29,153 nt of DNA from a virus. Below, in pieces: positions 3,514 to 23,664 of this stretch. The notes beneath the pieces were generated by a model, which saw nothing but the letters and a program-made list of their open reading frames with translations, was not told the DNA's origin and ran no database searches. The DNA is taken from positions 1 through 29,153 of IMG/VR virus record IMGVR_UViG_3300035701_000203; one strand, 5' to 3'. The first letter of the stretch is position 1, and each line of letters begins with the position of its first letter. The position numbers were made by a program, and so were the translations under genes.

Positions 3514-3726
3514 ATGCCGTGGAACCCAAAGCAGTTTCGAGCCAAACACAACAAGTCACTGACTCCCGCCCAGGCCGTCAATGCCTCCAAGATCGCAAAC
3601 GCAATCCTCGAAGATACCGGCGATGATGGTCAAGCCATCCGCATTGCCAACGCCAAGGTCAAGGACTCACAGGTCAAGGACCCCGGCGATCATGCGGGCC
3701 CCAAAGGTAAGCGGGGGTCGAAATGA
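3514..3726 (+). CDS. Small conserved phage/bacterial protein (DUF7218-like), 70 aa
   Basis: AGGAGGG lies nine bases before the ATG. The N-terminal two thirds match a pattern I recognise from small proteins in phages and bacteria: MPWNPKQFRAKHNKSLTPAQ followed by a helix ending in IANAI and a GDDGQAIRIANAK block. I associate this with DUF7218; the exact accession should be checked. The tail is basic (GPKGKRGSK). Its stop overlaps the next start in ATGA, tying its translation to the sugar cassette, though there is no obvious functional link. Function unknown. Confidence 0.65.
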   Translation: MPWNPKQFRAKHNKSLTPAQAVNASKIANAILEDTGDDGQAIRIANAKVKDSQVKDPGDHAGPKGKRGSK

Positions 3727-4403
3727 ACATCATTGCACTCATACCTGCCCGGGGGCAGTCGAAACGGATACCCAAGAAAAACCTGCGCCTGTTGGGGGGT
3801 AAACCATTGGTGCAATGGACCATCGAGGCGGCGCAACGACTGATGGTTGACTTGGTGGTTGTGTCCACGGAAGATACTGAGATAGCGGCGCTTGCCAAAC
3901 GTTCCGGCGCCCAGGTTCTCGACCGTCCGCCCGAGTTGGCGAGCGACAACAGTACTGATAATGATGTAGTCGCGCATTTCCAGCAGCACTACAACGCCGA
4001 CTTCATCATTTATCTCAGGCCAACAACGCCGTTCCGCGGTGTCACGATCATGAGGCGGGCGCTGATTGAGGCGCACCAGGCGGAGTCCGATGGGTTTTCG
4101 TCGTTGAGATCGGTGCAAGTTATGGCTGAGAGTGCGTTCAAAGCGTTTTTCCGTGGCCATGCCGGGAAGCTCACGCCTATACTGTTCAACGGCCAGGACC
4201 TCACCAACAGGCCAAACCATTTGTGTCCAACAACGTACCAGGCCAACGGTTACGTTGATATCCTGTTCCCAAAATCCCTTGATTACCGGTCGGATGACTG
4301 TTTCGGGCAGCGCATTTACGGGTTTATCACGCCGCATACGATTGAGCTGGACACGCCGGAGCAGTGGGACGAGGCTGCGCGGTTGGTGGAGGATGGTCGA
4401 TGA
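3723..4403 (+). CDS. CMP-nonulosonate/acylneuraminate cytidylyltransferase-like, 226 aa
   Basis: The N-terminus IIALIPARGQSKRIPKKNLR is the nucleotide-binding signature of CMP-sialic acid and CMP-Kdo synthetases; the usual Gly after ARG is Gln here. Further family marks are GGKPLVQWTIEAA, VVVSTEDTEIAALA, LRPTTPFR and NGYVDILF. Members transfer CMP from CTP to a 2-keto-3-deoxy sugar acid, releasing pyrophosphate, in the cytosol. The length fits a stand-alone synthetase without a fused phosphatase domain. It is the first of four coupled genes that end with a NeuB-type synthase, so a nonulosonic acid is a better substrate guess than Kdo. SpsF-like proteins of spore-coat and flagellar glycan clusters are similar. 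The exact sugar cannot be read from sequence. Confidence 0.8.
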   Translation: MNIIALIPARGQSKRIPKKNLRLLGGKPLVQWTIEAAQRLMVDLVVVSTEDTEIAALAKRSGAQVLDRPPELASDNSTDNDVVAHFQQHYNADFIIYLRPTTPFRGVTIMRRALIEAHQAESDGFSSLRSVQVMAESAFKAFFRGHAGKLTPILFNGQDLTNRPNHLCPTTYQANGYVDILFPKSLDYRSDDCFGQRIYGFITPHTIELDTPEQWDEAARLVEDGR

Positions 4404-5434
4404 GTGTGCTATTCAACCGTCAATTCAGGTGGCAACGGGCCGACAACGCCACCGTGTGGAGTTATGGCCGGGCATTCACCGACTTCACATCGGGGATCTT
4501 TTGCGCCAATGTGGGGCACAACAACCCGGTGGTTAATGATGCGGTGGCTGCTGCAATAGCCAAATACGGGCCGCACACGTACACCTACGATACGGGGTTG
4601 CGGAACACATATGAGAGGGAGTTGCTGGCGTGGACCGGGTATGATGCGATGCAATTGTTCACGACTGGTAGTGAGGCGGTCGAGGCGGCGCTGAGGATTG
4701 CGCGGTGGGATGTCGGGCCGGATGCGACCGTTTACAAGCTGGCGGATACGTTTCACGGGAAAACGTATGGACCGATGGAGACCTTGACTACGTACAATGT
4801 GCTCCCGGGAAAGATGCGGACAGGCATTATCGAGGGTTATCGCGGGTGGGATGCGCGGTTTTGGAGTCAAGAGACTGTTGATCTCATCAAATCTGCGGAG
4901 ATCGTGATCTTTGATGAGATTCAAAGCGGGTTTGGCCGCACGGGAACGAGGTTTGCCTACCAACATTATGATGGATTGGCGCCGGATCTCCTTGTCATTG
5001 GTAAGGGCATGTGCAATGGGTATCCGGGGAGCGCGGTGCTGGCTAGGGGAGAGATGGCGGAGATCATGAGCGTCAACCAGGAGGAGTGGAGCAACACTCA
5101 TGGCGGCAATCCGATCACGTGTGCGGCGGGGTTGGCGGTGTTGGGCGTGATTGACCGGGGGAAGATACCGGATCAGGAGAGTTGTGCGTTGTTGCAGTAC
5201 CGGTTGCGAGAGATTTGGGATGATGTGAGTGGTCGGGGAATGGTGGCGGCGCTGCTCACCAAGAGCGTCGAGGATGCAGACCAGATTGTACTGGCGGCAC
5301 GGGACAAGGGGTTGTTGTTGGTGCATACGGGCAAGGCTAGCGTCAAGATTGGGCCACCGTTAACGATTTCTTATGAGCAATTGGCCACAGGGCTGGTCAT
5401 ATTAGAGGAGGTTTTATGCGTCATGTTGGGTTGA
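4400..5434 (+). CDS. Class-III PLP aminotransferase (GSA-aminomutase-like), 344 aa
   Basis: GGAGG lies nine bases before the ATG at 4400, which overlaps the previous stop (ATGA); a longer in-frame start at 4364 is inside the upstream gene. Family marks are SGIFCANVGHNNPVV near the N-terminus, TGSEAVEAALRIAR (cofactor phosphate region), FDEIQSGFGRTG with PLP-binding Asp172, and VIGKGMCNGYP with the likely Schiff-base Lys202. At 344 residues it is shorter than typical members (about 420-450), mainly at both ends. Relatives next to SpsF- and NeuB-like genes in surface-glycan clusters aminate sugar intermediates. PseC/LegC aminotransferases belong to a different (DegT) family, so this would be an unusual nonulosonate route. 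Confidence 0.8.
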   Translation: MSVLFNRQFRWQRADNATVWSYGRAFTDFTSGIFCANVGHNNPVVNDAVAAAIAKYGPHTYTYDTGLRNTYERELLAWTGYDAMQLFTTGSEAVEAALRIARWDVGPDATVYKLADTFHGKTYGPMETLTTYNVLPGKMRTGIIEGYRGWDARFWSQETVDLIKSAEIVIFDEIQSGFGRTGTRFAYQHYDGLAPDLLVIGKGMCNGYPGSAVLARGEMAEIMSVNQEEWSNTHGGNPITCAAGLAVLGVIDRGKIPDQESCALLQYRLREIWDDVSGRGMVAALLTKSVEDADQIVLAARDKGLLLVHTGKASVKIGPPLTISYEQLATGLVILEEVLCVMLG

Positions 5435-5769
5435 TGGTCGAGGATGCGTCAATTGAGGACGAGATTGCTTGGTTCGAGGGGTTGGGATATTCGGTTGTGA
5501 TCCATCGCCATGAGATTTGGGCACATCGGCGGTTGCGGGTGGTGAAGATGCAGCGTGGTGATGACCCGGTGATGATCGAGTTGATCAAACCGATTGCCGG
5601 GGAATGGTCGCCGCATGTTAGTATTGATGTGGTGTCATGGCCCAAAGGGGTATTGGTGCGGCACCTGGGGGAGCCCGAGGATGAGGGGATTGAGGTGGGG
5701 TTTGCCATGAGCCCGGCGGGGAACGTGGTTGAAATGGTGAAACCGAAGGTGGTGGAGGTGGCGGCATGA
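5416..5769 (+). CDS. VOC-superfamily (glyoxalase-like) protein, 117 aa
   Basis: GAGGAGG lies before the ATG at 5416, inside the end of the aminotransferase gene (19-bp overlap). RHVGLMVEDASIEDEIAWFE followed by GLGY is the usual first strand-helix of a vicinal-oxygen-chelate module, and the end PAGNVVEMVKP matches the final strand with its metal-binding Glu. One VOC module is present, so it would work as a dimer. Metal ligands could be His4 at the start and the late Glu. Inside a sugar operon such a protein may be an epimerase, isomerase or lyase on a sugar-acid intermediate. That role is inferred from position only. Confidence 0.6.
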   Translation: MRHVGLMVEDASIEDEIAWFEGLGYSVVIHRHEIWAHRRLRVVKMQRGDDPVMIELIKPIAGEWSPHVSIDVVSWPKGVLVRHLGEPEDEGIEVGFAMSPAGNVVEMVKPKVVEVAA

Positions 5770-6593
5770 CACTGCTTATTGGGGAGCTGGGAATCAATCA
5801 TAACGCCAGCATGCTCGTCGCCAGGCAGCTCATCGACCAGGCCAAACATGCGGGTTGGGACATGGTGAAGTTTCAGAAACGGACCATTGATGTGGTGTAT
5901 ACTCGGGAGTTCCTGGATTCACCGCGGGAGAGTCCGTGGGGGATGACGCAACGGGCACAGAAAGAGGCGTTGGAGCTCAGTGTTGATCAGCTTCACGAGT
6001 TGTTTGAGTATGCGCGGGAGCTCGGACTGGAACCGTTTGCATCCGCCTGGGATTTGCAGGCGTTGGATGAGGTTGACGGGTTGGGGGTGAAACATCACAA
6101 GGTGGCTTCACCGATGATCACGAATCTACCCTTCATTGAGGCGGTGGCGCAGAGGAGGAAACACACGTTCATTGGCACGGGGATGAGTGAGACGTGGAAT
6201 GTGGAGGAGGCGGTACGGATTTTCAGGCGTGCGGATTGTCCATTCACGTTGATGCACTGCGTGTCGATCTATCCATGCCCTGATGCAATGTGCAATATTT
6301 TGACCATGAAGACCATGGCGGAACATTTCTCGTGTCCTGTTGGGTATAGCGGGCATGAAGCCGGGATTTTGCCGTCAATGGCTGCGGCGATGTTGGGTGC
6401 GGTGGCGATTGAGCGGCACATCACGCTGGACCGGGCGATGTACGGCAGTGATCAGGCGGCAAGCTTGGAACATCGAGGGATGGAATTGCTGGCGCAGTAT
6501 GTGCGGTCGATACCGGGCGTGCTGGGTGGTGGGTACAAGGCGATGTTGGCGGAAGAGAAGGAGAACGCGAAGAAGTTGAGGTATTGGGAGTGA
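5766..6593 (+). CDS. NeuB-type sialic/nonulosonic acid synthase, 275 aa
   Basis: The protein follows the NeuB family from end to end: GELGINHNA (3-11), MVKFQKR (33-39), a KVASPMITN block (112-120), GTGMSETW (138-144), LMHCVSIYPCP (162-172), GYSGHE (193-198) and IERHITLDR (215-223). His197 and His218 correspond to the metal-binding histidines of known synthases. Such enzymes condense phosphoenolpyruvate with an amino sugar to give a nine-carbon keto acid. The C-terminal antifreeze-like SAF domain, which helps bind substrate in classic NeuB (about 350 aa), is absent. A GGAGG SD and ATGA overlap tie it to the VOC gene. It provides the substrate for the synthetase at 3723. Confidence 0.85.
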   Translation: MTLLIGELGINHNASMLVARQLIDQAKHAGWDMVKFQKRTIDVVYTREFLDSPRESPWGMTQRAQKEALELSVDQLHELFEYARELGLEPFASAWDLQALDEVDGLGVKHHKVASPMITNLPFIEAVAQRRKHTFIGTGMSETWNVEEAVRIFRRADCPFTLMHCVSIYPCPDAMCNILTMKTMAEHFSCPVGYSGHEAGILPSMAAAMLGAVAIERHITLDRAMYGSDQAASLEHRGMELLAQYVRSIPGVLGGGYKAMLAEEKENAKKLRYWE

Positions 6594-6649
6594 GGGAGTA
6601 GTGATTTGACGCGGCGGGGTATGGCAATGCCCGTTCAGGAAAGGTTTGA

Positions 6650-6942
6650 TTCGGCATGGCATGGCAGGTTGGGCAAGGTGAGGTCCGGCAAGGCGAGGCC
6701 TGGCCTGGTATGGCGCGGTGGGGCCAGGTTCGGCATGGCAGGCAGGGCCAGGTGGACACAGGCGAGGACCGGTTGGGTCCGGTAAGGTACGGCAGGAGAG
6801 GTGGGGTTTGGTGAGGCGTGGCGAGGCACAGCGGGGCCTGGCTAGGTCTGGCCAGGTTTGGTACGGTACGGCAGGAGAGGCCCGGCACGGTCTGGCCTGG
6901 TGAGGCAAGGTCTGGCAAGGCAAGGTACGGCAGGCAAGGTCA
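6650..6942 (+). repeat. GG-every-five-bases array, left
   Basis: Nearly 300 bases have GG spaced five bases apart, approximately (GGYNN)n, with units such as GGCAT, GGCAA, GGTAC, GGCCT. Looser repeats start near 6610. The phase is kept over long runs although the variable bases differ, so this is not a simple microsatellite. The strand bias (G on +) is extreme. It fills the gap between the NeuB-type gene and the gene at 6975 and ends just before that gene's leader. It has no CRISPR-like repeat/spacer structure. Confidence 0.9.
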
Positions 6943-6974
6943 ACTTTTTTACCCTCTTTGAGGAGACTACGCAG

Positions 6975-7619
6975 ATGGCAAAAGCAGAAAAGAAGACGGC
7001 AATTGCAGAAACAGTAATCCCGGACATTTTAACCAGTGTCAAGAGAGTGAGTTTGGTTCTTCATGGACTACCGGGTTCTCCGTTAGTGGTTCATGCGTTT
7101 GCGGAGAAGGTCAAACAGGAGATCCGGGACAAGCAGCAGAAGAAGGTCAAGGAAAAGAAACAGGAACGCGACCCGAACGAGGAATTTCTTGCAGCACGTT
7201 ATGTTGATGCACAAGGGCGTGAATGCGCCCCGCTAACTGGTATCAAAAAGGCCATGGTCAGTGCGGCCACGGCGTTCGAGGATCTGACCAAGGTGGGGTT
7301 GAGGCAAGCGATTTTCGTATCATTCACTGATGATCCGGGTGCATCGCTGGTTCCGATTGAGCTCTTTGATGGTTCACCGGCGGTTGCTGTCATGCGTGAG
7401 GATGCGGTGACTATTGGCAACAACATTCGCGGATTGACTTATCGACCTTGTTACAACGAGTGGCAATTGCGCGTTGATGTGGAGTTCAACAGCCGAATTG
7501 TGTCAGAAGCGCAAGTTTTGGCGCTGATGGATCAGGCTGGATGGGGTGTTGGGATTTGCGAGGGAAGACCGGAGAAGACCAGCGCCCTTGGTTGGGGCAG
7601 GTTTTTGAGAGTGAGGTAG
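6975..7619 (+). CDS. Phage protein of unknown function flanked by GG arrays, 214 aa
   Basis: The ATG at 6975 follows GAGGAG at 6959-6964; an uninterrupted in-frame extension back to 6858 is array sequence and is not used. Residues 1-20 are basic. VLHGLPGSPLVVHAFAEKVKQE (about 29-50) and a Lys-rich linker precede the main domain; the end GWGVGICEGRPEK...GWGRFLRV is distinctive. I recognise this pattern (PLVVHAF... and a closing AGxxVGxxxxRPEK-GxxF) from widespread phage proteins without known function. It resembles neither packaging nor tail proteins. Being framed by two arrays, it may travel as a unit. Codon use is more AT-rich than that of the flanking arrays. Confidence 0.7.
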   Translation: MAKAEKKTAIAETVIPDILTSVKRVSLVLHGLPGSPLVVHAFAEKVKQEIRDKQQKKVKEKKQERDPNEEFLAARYVDAQGRECAPLTGIKKAMVSAATAFEDLTKVGLRQAIFVSFTDDPGASLVPIELFDGSPAVAVMREDAVTIGNNIRGLTYRPCYNEWQLRVDVEFNSRIVSEAQVLALMDQAGWGVGICEGRPEKTSALGWGRFLRVR

Positions 7620-7629
7620 GGGGTTGTTG

Positions 7630-7885
7630 CTTGGTGGTAGGACAGGCTAGGCTGGGCATGGCGCGGCTGGGCGAGGCAAGGTAGGGCATGGCGTGGTTCG
7701 GCAGGCCGGGTTGGGCATGGTGTGGTTTGGTGAAGTAAGGTTTGGTCGGGTTCGGCAGGCGCGGCCAGGCCGGGTAAGGCAAGGCGGGGTTTGGCGCGGC
7801 ATGGTGTGGTACGGCAGGCGAGGCGAGGCGGAGTCAGGCATGGTAGGGTTTGGCTTGGCGCGACGCGACACGACAAGACAAGGTT
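7630..7885 (+). repeat. GG-every-five-bases array, right
   Basis: Same design as 6650-6942: GG about every five bases on the + strand, with units such as GGCAT, GGCAA, GGTTC and GGTAC, over about 250 bases. It starts just after the stop at 7619 and decays into GCGAC/ACGAC units near 7858-7880 before the leader of the gene at 7923. The two arrays are in the same orientation, not inverted. Confidence 0.9.
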
Positions 7886-22437: not shown

Positions 22438-22701
22438 ATGTCAAATACACCGTCGAGCACACCGTCATCAACTCCATCAAACACGCCATCGCGTACTCCG
22501 TCACGAACACCGTCACGAACACCGTCAAACACTAAATCCAACACTCCTTCAGCGACTCCGAGTGCTTCATCGACCCCATCTATGACACCTAGTTCAACGC
22601 CTTCGCCGACTCCGAGCAGCACACCATCGCAAACGCCGTCATCCACCCCGAGTGCCGGTGATGTTGTTTGGCAATACATGTTGATCATGAGGCAACAGTA
22701 G
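22438..22701 (+). CDS. Mucin-like Xaa-Thr-Pro-Ser repeat protein, short copy, 87 aa
   Basis: AGGGA lies just before the ATG. After MSN the protein is almost wholly tetrapeptides of the form X-T-P-S (X is S, N, R, A, M, P or Q) up to about residue 73, then a short end GDVVWQYMLIMRQQ. It has no signal peptide. Ser/Thr/Pro make up most residues, as in mucin-like O-glycosylated or extended linker proteins. The start MSNTPSSTPS and the ending W-x3-LIMR are shared with the next gene, so the two are duplicates of different length. Its frame is the only one with a start, SD and non-repeat end in register. Confidence 0.65.
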   Translation: MSNTPSSTPSSTPSNTPSRTPSRTPSRTPSNTKSNTPSATPSASSTPSMTPSSTPSPTPSSTPSQTPSSTPSAGDVVWQYMLIMRQQ

Positions 22702-23664
22702 ATGTCGAATACCCCATCATCAACTCCATCGAGGACTCCATCGAGGACTCCATCGAGGACTCCATCATCAACTCCATCGAGGACTCCATCATCAACTCCA
22801 TCGAGGACTCCATCGCGCACTCCAAGCGCGACCCCAAGTGCATCAGCGACCCCAAGCTCGACTCCAAGCAGCACCCCATCGCGCACTCCATCGAGCACCC
22901 CGTCAGCGACTCCAAGCGCGTCAGCGACTCCATCAAGTACACCATCAGCGACTCCAAGCGCGTCATCGACCCCAAGCAGCACCCCATCGCGCACCCCATC
23001 CAGCACTCCATCAGCTACTCCGAGTGCTTCATCGACCCCGAGTGCCACCCCGAGCGCATCAGCGACACCAAGCAGCACCCCATCAGCGACCCCTAGTGCC
23101 TCGTCAACGCCATCATCGACACCATCATCGACACCATCATCGACGCCATCACGCACACCTTCAAACACGCCATCAGCCACTCCGAGTGCATCAGCTACCC
23201 CTTCGTCAACGCCGTCATCAACACCAAGTGCGACACCCAGCGCGTCAGCAACACCGTCCAGCACGCCGAGTTCGACGCCATCACGCACACCTTCAAACAC
23301 GCCATCAGCCACTCCGAGTGCGTCAGCCACGCCTTCGTCAACGCCGTCAAGCACACCAAGTTCTACTCCTTCACGCACACCGTCATCAACGCCATCCAAT
23401 ACCCCGTCAGGTACGCCAAGCTCGACTCCGAGTTCAACCCCTTCACGAACGCCGAGCGCGACCCCAAGTGCTTCAGCAACACCCAGCACGACGCCAAGCT
23501 CGACTCCCTCACAAACGCCATCAAGCACGCCATCTTCGACGCCAAGCTCGACTCCTTCAGGTTCAACGCCTTCAGCTACGCCTTCGGCCACGCCGTCATC
23601 GACGCCTAGTTCCACGCCTTCATCACCTGATTGGAGCCGTGTTTTGATAATGAGGATGTGGTGA
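22702..23664 (+). CDS. Mucin-like Xaa-Thr-Pro-Ser repeat protein, long copy, 320 aa
   Basis: The ATG directly follows the stop of the short copy, with GAGG nine bases upstream. Nearly the whole protein is X-T-P-S tetrapeptides with interspersed ASATPS; it ends SPDWSRVLIMRMW. Serines are encoded by both TCN and AGY, and Pro and Thr third positions vary, which suggests selection on the protein rather than only recent DNA slippage. Two stretches are recent duplications (about 22712-22830, and 23140-23189 against 23272-23321). A rigid, extended, positively charged rod is expected, with very many possible O-glycosylation sites. Tail fibre, adhesin or decoration are all possible. Glycosyltransferase genes follow at once. 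Confidence 0.7.
   Translation: MSNTPSSTPSRTPSRTPSRTPSSTPSRTPSSTPSRTPSRTPSATPSASATPSSTPSSTPSRTPSSTPSATPSASATPSSTPSATPSASSTPSSTPSRTPSSTPSATPSASSTPSATPSASATPSSTPSATPSASSTPSSTPSSTPSSTPSRTPSNTPSATPSASATPSSTPSSTPSATPSASATPSSTPSSTPSRTPSNTPSATPSASATPSSTPSSTPSSTPSRTPSSTPSNTPSGTPSSTPSSTPSRTPSATPSASATPSTTPSSTPSQTPSSTPSSTPSSTPSGSTPSATPSATPSSTPSSTPSSPDWSRVLIMRMW
22712..22830 (+). repeat. Near-perfect 12-bp repeats in the mucin-like gene
   Basis: Units TCGAGGACTCCA and TCATCAACTCCA alternate with almost no substitutions over about ten copies. Elsewhere in the gene the same tetrapeptide is spelled with many different codons, so this patch is the youngest part and probably still changes in copy number. Confidence 0.85.
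23140..23321 (+). repeat. 50-bp exact duplication in the mucin-like gene, 132 bp apart
   Basis: Bases 23140-23189 and 23272-23321 are identical, and similarity continues for about 40 more bases. The offset of 132 bp is eleven 12-bp units, keeping both frame and tetrapeptide phase. This shows growth by segment duplication in addition to single-unit slippage. Confidence 0.9.

Follow-up and report, generated by a model that had tools for sequence, protein, structure and literature searches.

A very probable VIPR locus: GGCA-punctuated GGYNN arrays on both sides of a RAMP-fold gene in a viral sequence record

The window, meaning the whole stretch of DNA that was analysed, is the entire IMG/VR record IMGVR_UViG_3300035701_000203; it is 29,153 bases long and is probably a genome fragment. 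Within it, a single gene is flanked on both sides by arrays in which GG recurs every five bases:

6613-6939, + strand: array 1, GGYNN repeats in about four guide units split by GGCA
6613-6662, + strand: degenerate first copies of array 1
6975-7619, + strand: vipr gene, encoding a 214-aa protein of phrog_4652 with a RAMP/Cas7-like fold, homologue of SUSP1 Vipr (PDB 36pp)
7640-7881, + strand: array 2, GGYNN repeats in four guide units split by GGCA (periodic chain 7640-7858)

The next gene upstream of the locus encodes NeuB and the next downstream a B12-binding radical SAM protein. Genes at 3723-6593, just 5' of the arrays, encode a CMP-sugar cytidylyltransferase, a class III aminotransferase, a glyoxalase-like protein and the NeuB synthase, and with the radical SAM and methyltransferase genes 3' of the arrays they form a phage-borne glycan gene set (for a nonulosonic-acid-like sugar). 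The terminase of the window is nearest to those of podophages such as VA-RY-3, Ss1, MEP301 and BcepC6B, and the carrier is likely a podophage-like virus. Elsewhere, an open reading frame at 22438-23664 adjoins the virion genes and contains several hundred residues of TPSSTPSRTPSATPSA repeats (a 12-nt repeat in the DNA); the other strand is open there too. A 38-bp direct repeat lies at 1523-1598, its two copies 92% alike and with TTTGTGACACGTGGGGTGTCAAAAATTTGACACATGGG inside.

The periodicity of both arrays is far stronger than composition would give. In array 1, 62 GG dinucleotides could be chained, with 52 steps of exactly five bases and a pyrimidine after GG in 48 of 52 cases (92%); the corresponding figures for array 2 are 43 chained GG, 37 steps of five and a pyrimidine in 36 of 38 (95%). 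The five-base periodicity scores were 95 and 69, against 3.9 ± 1.3 and 3.8 ± 1.4 in 500 dinucleotide shuffles of arrays 1 and 2, respectively, with a maximum of 11. A scan of both strands found no further comparable array elsewhere in the window. The observation of the sequence-only reading, two (GGYNN)n arrays in the same orientation around one gene, is therefore confirmed, and the gene itself runs in that orientation. Stop codons in most frames exclude a coding origin for the arrays. Toward its end array 2 degenerates (GACGC GACAC GACAA GACAA), with GA replacing GG from 7862 while the phase is kept, and positions 7857-7881 are a decaying guide.

The earlier description of a phase that is kept holds for most steps, but it had missed that the phase slips by −1 at a recurring 4-nt unit, GGCA, in both arrays. 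Parsing the arrays at GGCA suggests about eight guides in the window, of 10-15 repeats each, listed here with the variable NN dinucleotide of every repeat:

6667-6736, + strand: guide unit U1, 14 repeats; NN = TG AA GA CC AA GA CT CT AT GC GG CA TC AT
6741-6790, + strand: guide unit U2, 10 repeats, 1 irregular; NN = AG CA GG CA GA CC TG CC AA AC
6795-6869, + strand: guide unit U3, 15 repeats, 1 irregular; NN = GA GG TT GA GT GA AC GG CT TA CT CA TT AC AC
6874-6928, + strand: guide unit U4, 11 repeats; NN = GA CC AC CT CT GA AA CT AA AA AC
7640-7699, + strand: guide unit V1, 12 repeats; NN = CA TA TG AT GC TG GA AA AG AT GT TC
7704-7753, + strand: guide unit V2, 10 repeats, 1 irregular; NN = CG TG AT GT TT GA AA TT CG TC
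7758-7812, + strand: guide unit V3, 11 repeats; NN = GC CA CG AA AA GG TT GC AT GT AC
7817-7881, + strand: guide unit V4, 13 repeats, decaying; NN = GA GA GG CA AT AG TT TT GC GC AC AA AA
6663-6666, 6737-6740, 6791-6794, 6870-6873 and 6929-6932, + strand: GGCA units of array 1
7700-7703, 7754-7757 and 7813-7816, + strand: GGCA units of array 2

The gene between the arrays starts at an ATG (6975) with GAGGAG 5' of it. Its product matches phrog_4652, a family of unknown function (E 4e-20), and no Pfam family. A profile built from 71 relatives, 70 of them members of phrog_4652, matched PDB entry 36pp, "SUSP1 Vipr protein", with an E-value of 6.2e-39 over 187 residues, whereas the same profile had almost no sequence similarity to CRISPR proteins (Csm5, E 1.4). 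An AlphaFold2 model of the product reached a pLDDT of 90.9, and the best 50 fold matches listed in the PDB were all CRISPR RAMP complexes or subunits, mainly of Csm (Csm3), the best being Csm 6ifl_F (E 6.7e-5, TM ~0.5). The motifs conserved in the relatives, SPL.H near the start, R.RP....W, and G.G..RP....GRF at the end, likewise suggest a RAMP.

VIPR (Viral Interference Programmable Repeat) was described in a bioRxiv preprint first posted on 27 April 2026 (PMC13142463). In this system a phage-borne RAMP, Vipr, binds guide RNAs (vrRNAs) of 9-16 YNNGG repeats, whose NN dinucleotides read double-stranded DNA with one base skipped; the outcome is transcriptional repression, directed against competing phages and satellites (PMC13142463). 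Seven types are distinguished, some with staggered arrays and overlapping guides or with arrays interspersed with hammerheads (PMC13142463). VIPR has been proposed as an ancestor of CRISPR.

We examined the association between arrays and gene from both sides. An array-first scan for (GGNNN)12 in viral contigs returned at least 120 stretches. Sixteen of the 120 listed were poly-G, coding, simple-repeat or sub-threshold, leaving 104 real GGYNN arrays, and among these listed matches 81 of the 104 had a Vipr homologue in the examined sequence; of the other 23, eight lay at the end of the examined sequence and 15 were without a homologue. Among the matches listed, 151 arrays out of 153 shared the strand of the gene and two lay opposite to it. 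The gene-first set comprised 14 loci from phages and plasmids that were picked by protein alone, blind to arrays. Their best same-strand scores ranged from 6.5 to 99, compared with 3-6 on the opposite strand, and 13 of the 14 exceeded all 78 scans of control viral loci (mean 3.7, maximum 7.0). All four of the protein-fetched loci from UmaThurman, LESphi2, Cy-LDV1 and Ecliptus had a same-strand GG-every-five array beside the gene. Linkage is thus found in both directions, so the arrays do not lie at random positions, and the link to one gene family that the sequence-only reading had proposed stands. The array-first scan also provides independent confirmation of the VIPR gene/array linkage at more than 80 viral loci.

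The family is widespread, in many unrelated phages and plasmids. Searches with tblastn against named phages found relatives in Gordonia phages, Pseudomonas LESphi2 and cyanophage Cy-LDV1; a related-locus search seeded with a single Vipr protein returned nothing. Homologues also occur on plasmids of Azospirillum, Bradyrhizobium and Paracoccus (L180-L186), with same-strand arrays that are mostly short, and on two Bradyrhizobium plasmids the vipr homologue is followed by metallophosphoesterase and AAA ATPase genes. Strong GGYNN arrays at L078:10563-10910, L048:10441-10586, L011:8662-8858 and L095:3096-4310 have no recognisable Vipr in the examined sequence; the first is placed among tail genes. 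It is possible that these are orphan guide arrays or that their Vipr proteins are too distant. In Gordonia phage UmaThurman, gp40 (L122:5571-5894), annotated as a hypothetical protein, falls almost wholly inside a GGYNN array; this gene call is probably spurious.

One gene bracketed by two direct arrays, in a family spread over unrelated phages and plasmids, is what would be expected if the arrays were recombination substrates that move the gene between phages as a cassette. However, arrays 1 and 2 share no long identical stretch, their homology being limited to the GG phase, and in many relatives the gene has its array, or several arrays, on a single side, which makes such a role extremely improbable. 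Nor does a reading in which the protein binds the arrays as DNA, as double-stranded or G-rich two-tetrad G-quadruplex sites serving copy number, recombination or autoregulation with RNA irrelevant, seem at all likely. In its favour, GG every five bases fits the two-tetrad motif, the arrays immediately adjoin the gene, and some Vipr relatives sit in replication/recombination modules. Against it, the protein has a guide-RNA-binding fold, the listed arrays keep to the strand of the gene as expected of a transcript, and the NN positions are hypervariable with a codon-like bias. Furthermore, GGY/NN RNAs co-purify with the Vipr proteins of SUSP1 and P. fulva (PMC13142463). The cassette and structural-DNA options of the sequence-only reading thus find no support, given the strand bias, the retention of one-sided arrays and variable bases that differ from copy to copy. 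The remaining option, that the product of the gene binds the arrays, was essentially right except that the molecule bound would be the array RNA, as in those relatives.

Across relatives, GGCA accounts for 66 of 69 four-nucleotide units flanked by in-phase repeats (23% expected), and its spacing is mostly 10-12 repeats. When 76 proteins were placed on a tree, one 25-row group (support 99/94) contained the window and 20 of the 22 loci with GGCA, away from SUSP1. Arrays of this clade are continuous and cut by GGCA, whereas SUSP1-like arrays (fjerdesal) consist of separate units with long A/T-rich tails. In the SUSP1 clade the repeats are followed by an invariable 3' tail whose structure is conserved (PMC13142463), and no such conserved tail is visible between the units of the window. 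Folding z-scores (0.18, −2.17 and −1.47) are not clearly special, an Rfam search that included hammerhead ribozymes matched no family, and no consensus promoter was found at the locus. GGCA would instead mark a processing or filament boundary. Within a locus, the repeats directly 5' of the GGCA units tend to resemble one another (five of the seven in the window carry AC or TC), and the boundary signal may therefore include part of this repeat. Tentatively, the one-nucleotide register slip at GGCA could be the boundary of a continuous, overlapping guide array, in which the 3' end of each guide comes from the start of the next, the Vipr filament stops at the register break, and the member in the window works with Vipr alone. 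The architecture may correspond to the "staggered arrays with overlapping vrRNAs" of the preprint, and the GGCA punctuation of continuous arrays appears to be new here, a point that the supplement of the preprint (PMC13142463) may or may not cover.

By profile search, a second gene of one family (phrog_15946 for a representative) lies near vipr in about 20 of the 25 loci that make up the clade, and this gene was absent from the whole window at E ≤ 10. It may lie elsewhere in the genome of this virus, because the record is incomplete. Since accessory vap genes are also typical of VIPR and not universal (PMC13142463), the missing vap removes no defining feature, and the window locus is possibly an accessory-free member. 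The absence could also be set beside the decayed ends of both arrays (6613-6662 and 7862-7881) and the irregular units in U2, U3, V2 and V4 as signs of a remnant, of VIPR origin and with its activity lost. This is unlikely given an intact vipr frame that keeps the conserved residues of the family, the high-confidence fold, the perfect phase of U1, U4, V1 and V3, and a 72%-identical relative that has arrays too.

We decoded the guides and searched them as NNxNNx patterns, with a one-base skip, in IMG/VR and GTDB genomes. For the guides scanned, neither collection yielded a natural target matched over its full length, scans with U4 and V1 gave no match, and none of the guides had a good one-base-skip match within the window. 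The partial matches all kept the reading frame, the skipped base falling on the wobble position. For V3, nine of the 11 units fitted a single VRR-NUC/Hjc-like nuclease gene, present in seven viral contigs; for U1, 10-11 of the 14 units fitted a T7-type primase-helicase (three contigs) and the 3' ten units an N4-like capsid gene (one contig). A calibration with U3 showed that 16 letters give 32 matches in about 19 unrelated genes, most of them in frame too, and an 18-letter scan is therefore expected to hit about one gene by chance. By this calibration the matches to the nuclease, primase-helicase and capsid genes stay within the range expected by chance, the 10-unit match of U1 being only modestly unlikely, and none of these genes stands as an established target. 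In the nuclease gene, an apparent second match, of U4 beside that of V3 (15 of 22), was discarded, as it breaks at a Q kept by most relatives. A test of the skip rule on all examined sequences was left unused, because the skip-1 excess came solely from loci that these very guides had been used to retrieve and is thus circular. Over 3544 repeats, 64% of N1 and 52% of N2 are purines, as at codon positions 1 and 2, and NN read as those positions gives sensible peptides. Such a bias would arise if many of the guides were sense-strand copies that skip the wobble base.

We conclude that the window very probably carries a VIPR locus, in which the GG arrays are guide-RNA arrays and 6975-7619 encodes a single RAMP guide-binding protein. 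The array anatomy, the family and fold of the protein, the two-way linkage and the clade were observed for this locus; guide RNA production, binding, the one-base skip and repression were demonstrated in VIPR relatives (PMC13142463). The arrays would be transcribed in the direction of the gene, and each guide RNA would comprise about 10-15 GGYNN repeats, with processing at the 4-nt GGCA setting its limits in this clade. Vipr, as a single-domain RAMP related to Cas7/Csm3, would coat the guide with one subunit per 5-nt repeat. GGY would be held by the protein, so that only NN pairs with double-stranded DNA and one target base is skipped between dinucleotides. Repression of genes in competing phages or satellites is the most likely function of the complex. 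The locus adds to a newly defined GGCA-punctuated clade an intact member with about eight decoded guides, and it is a compact candidate for the study of guide delimitation and of Vipr-alone function.

The protein shares with the RAMPs of class 1 CRISPR-Cas (Csm3/Cas7) the fold, a glycine-rich C-terminal loop and presumed oligomerisation along a guide RNA. It differs from them in having almost no sequence similarity, in a repeat of 5 nt in place of 6 nt, and in a guide that would be read non-contiguously. No cas family was found among the window genes searched and no CRISPR-like repeats, the direct repeats found in the window being 5-periodic or coding. TIGR-Tas arrays differ from the arrays of the window. 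As far as its description goes, TIGR-Tas (PMC12045711) resembles the locus as phage-borne, RNA-guided DNA targeting with an array of short guides, and is set apart by a protein, discovered through mining that began with Cas9, whose guide-binding domain belongs to another family. The likeness to SUSP1 VIPR is the closest, with a homologous RAMP, same-strand GGY/NN arrays flanking the gene, a phage-borne setting, and 10-15 repeats per guide compared with 9-16 (PMC13142463). Unlike SUSP1, the window belongs to a separate clade, has no accessory gene in its record, and carries continuous, GGCA-punctuated arrays in place of separate units with long A/T-rich tails.
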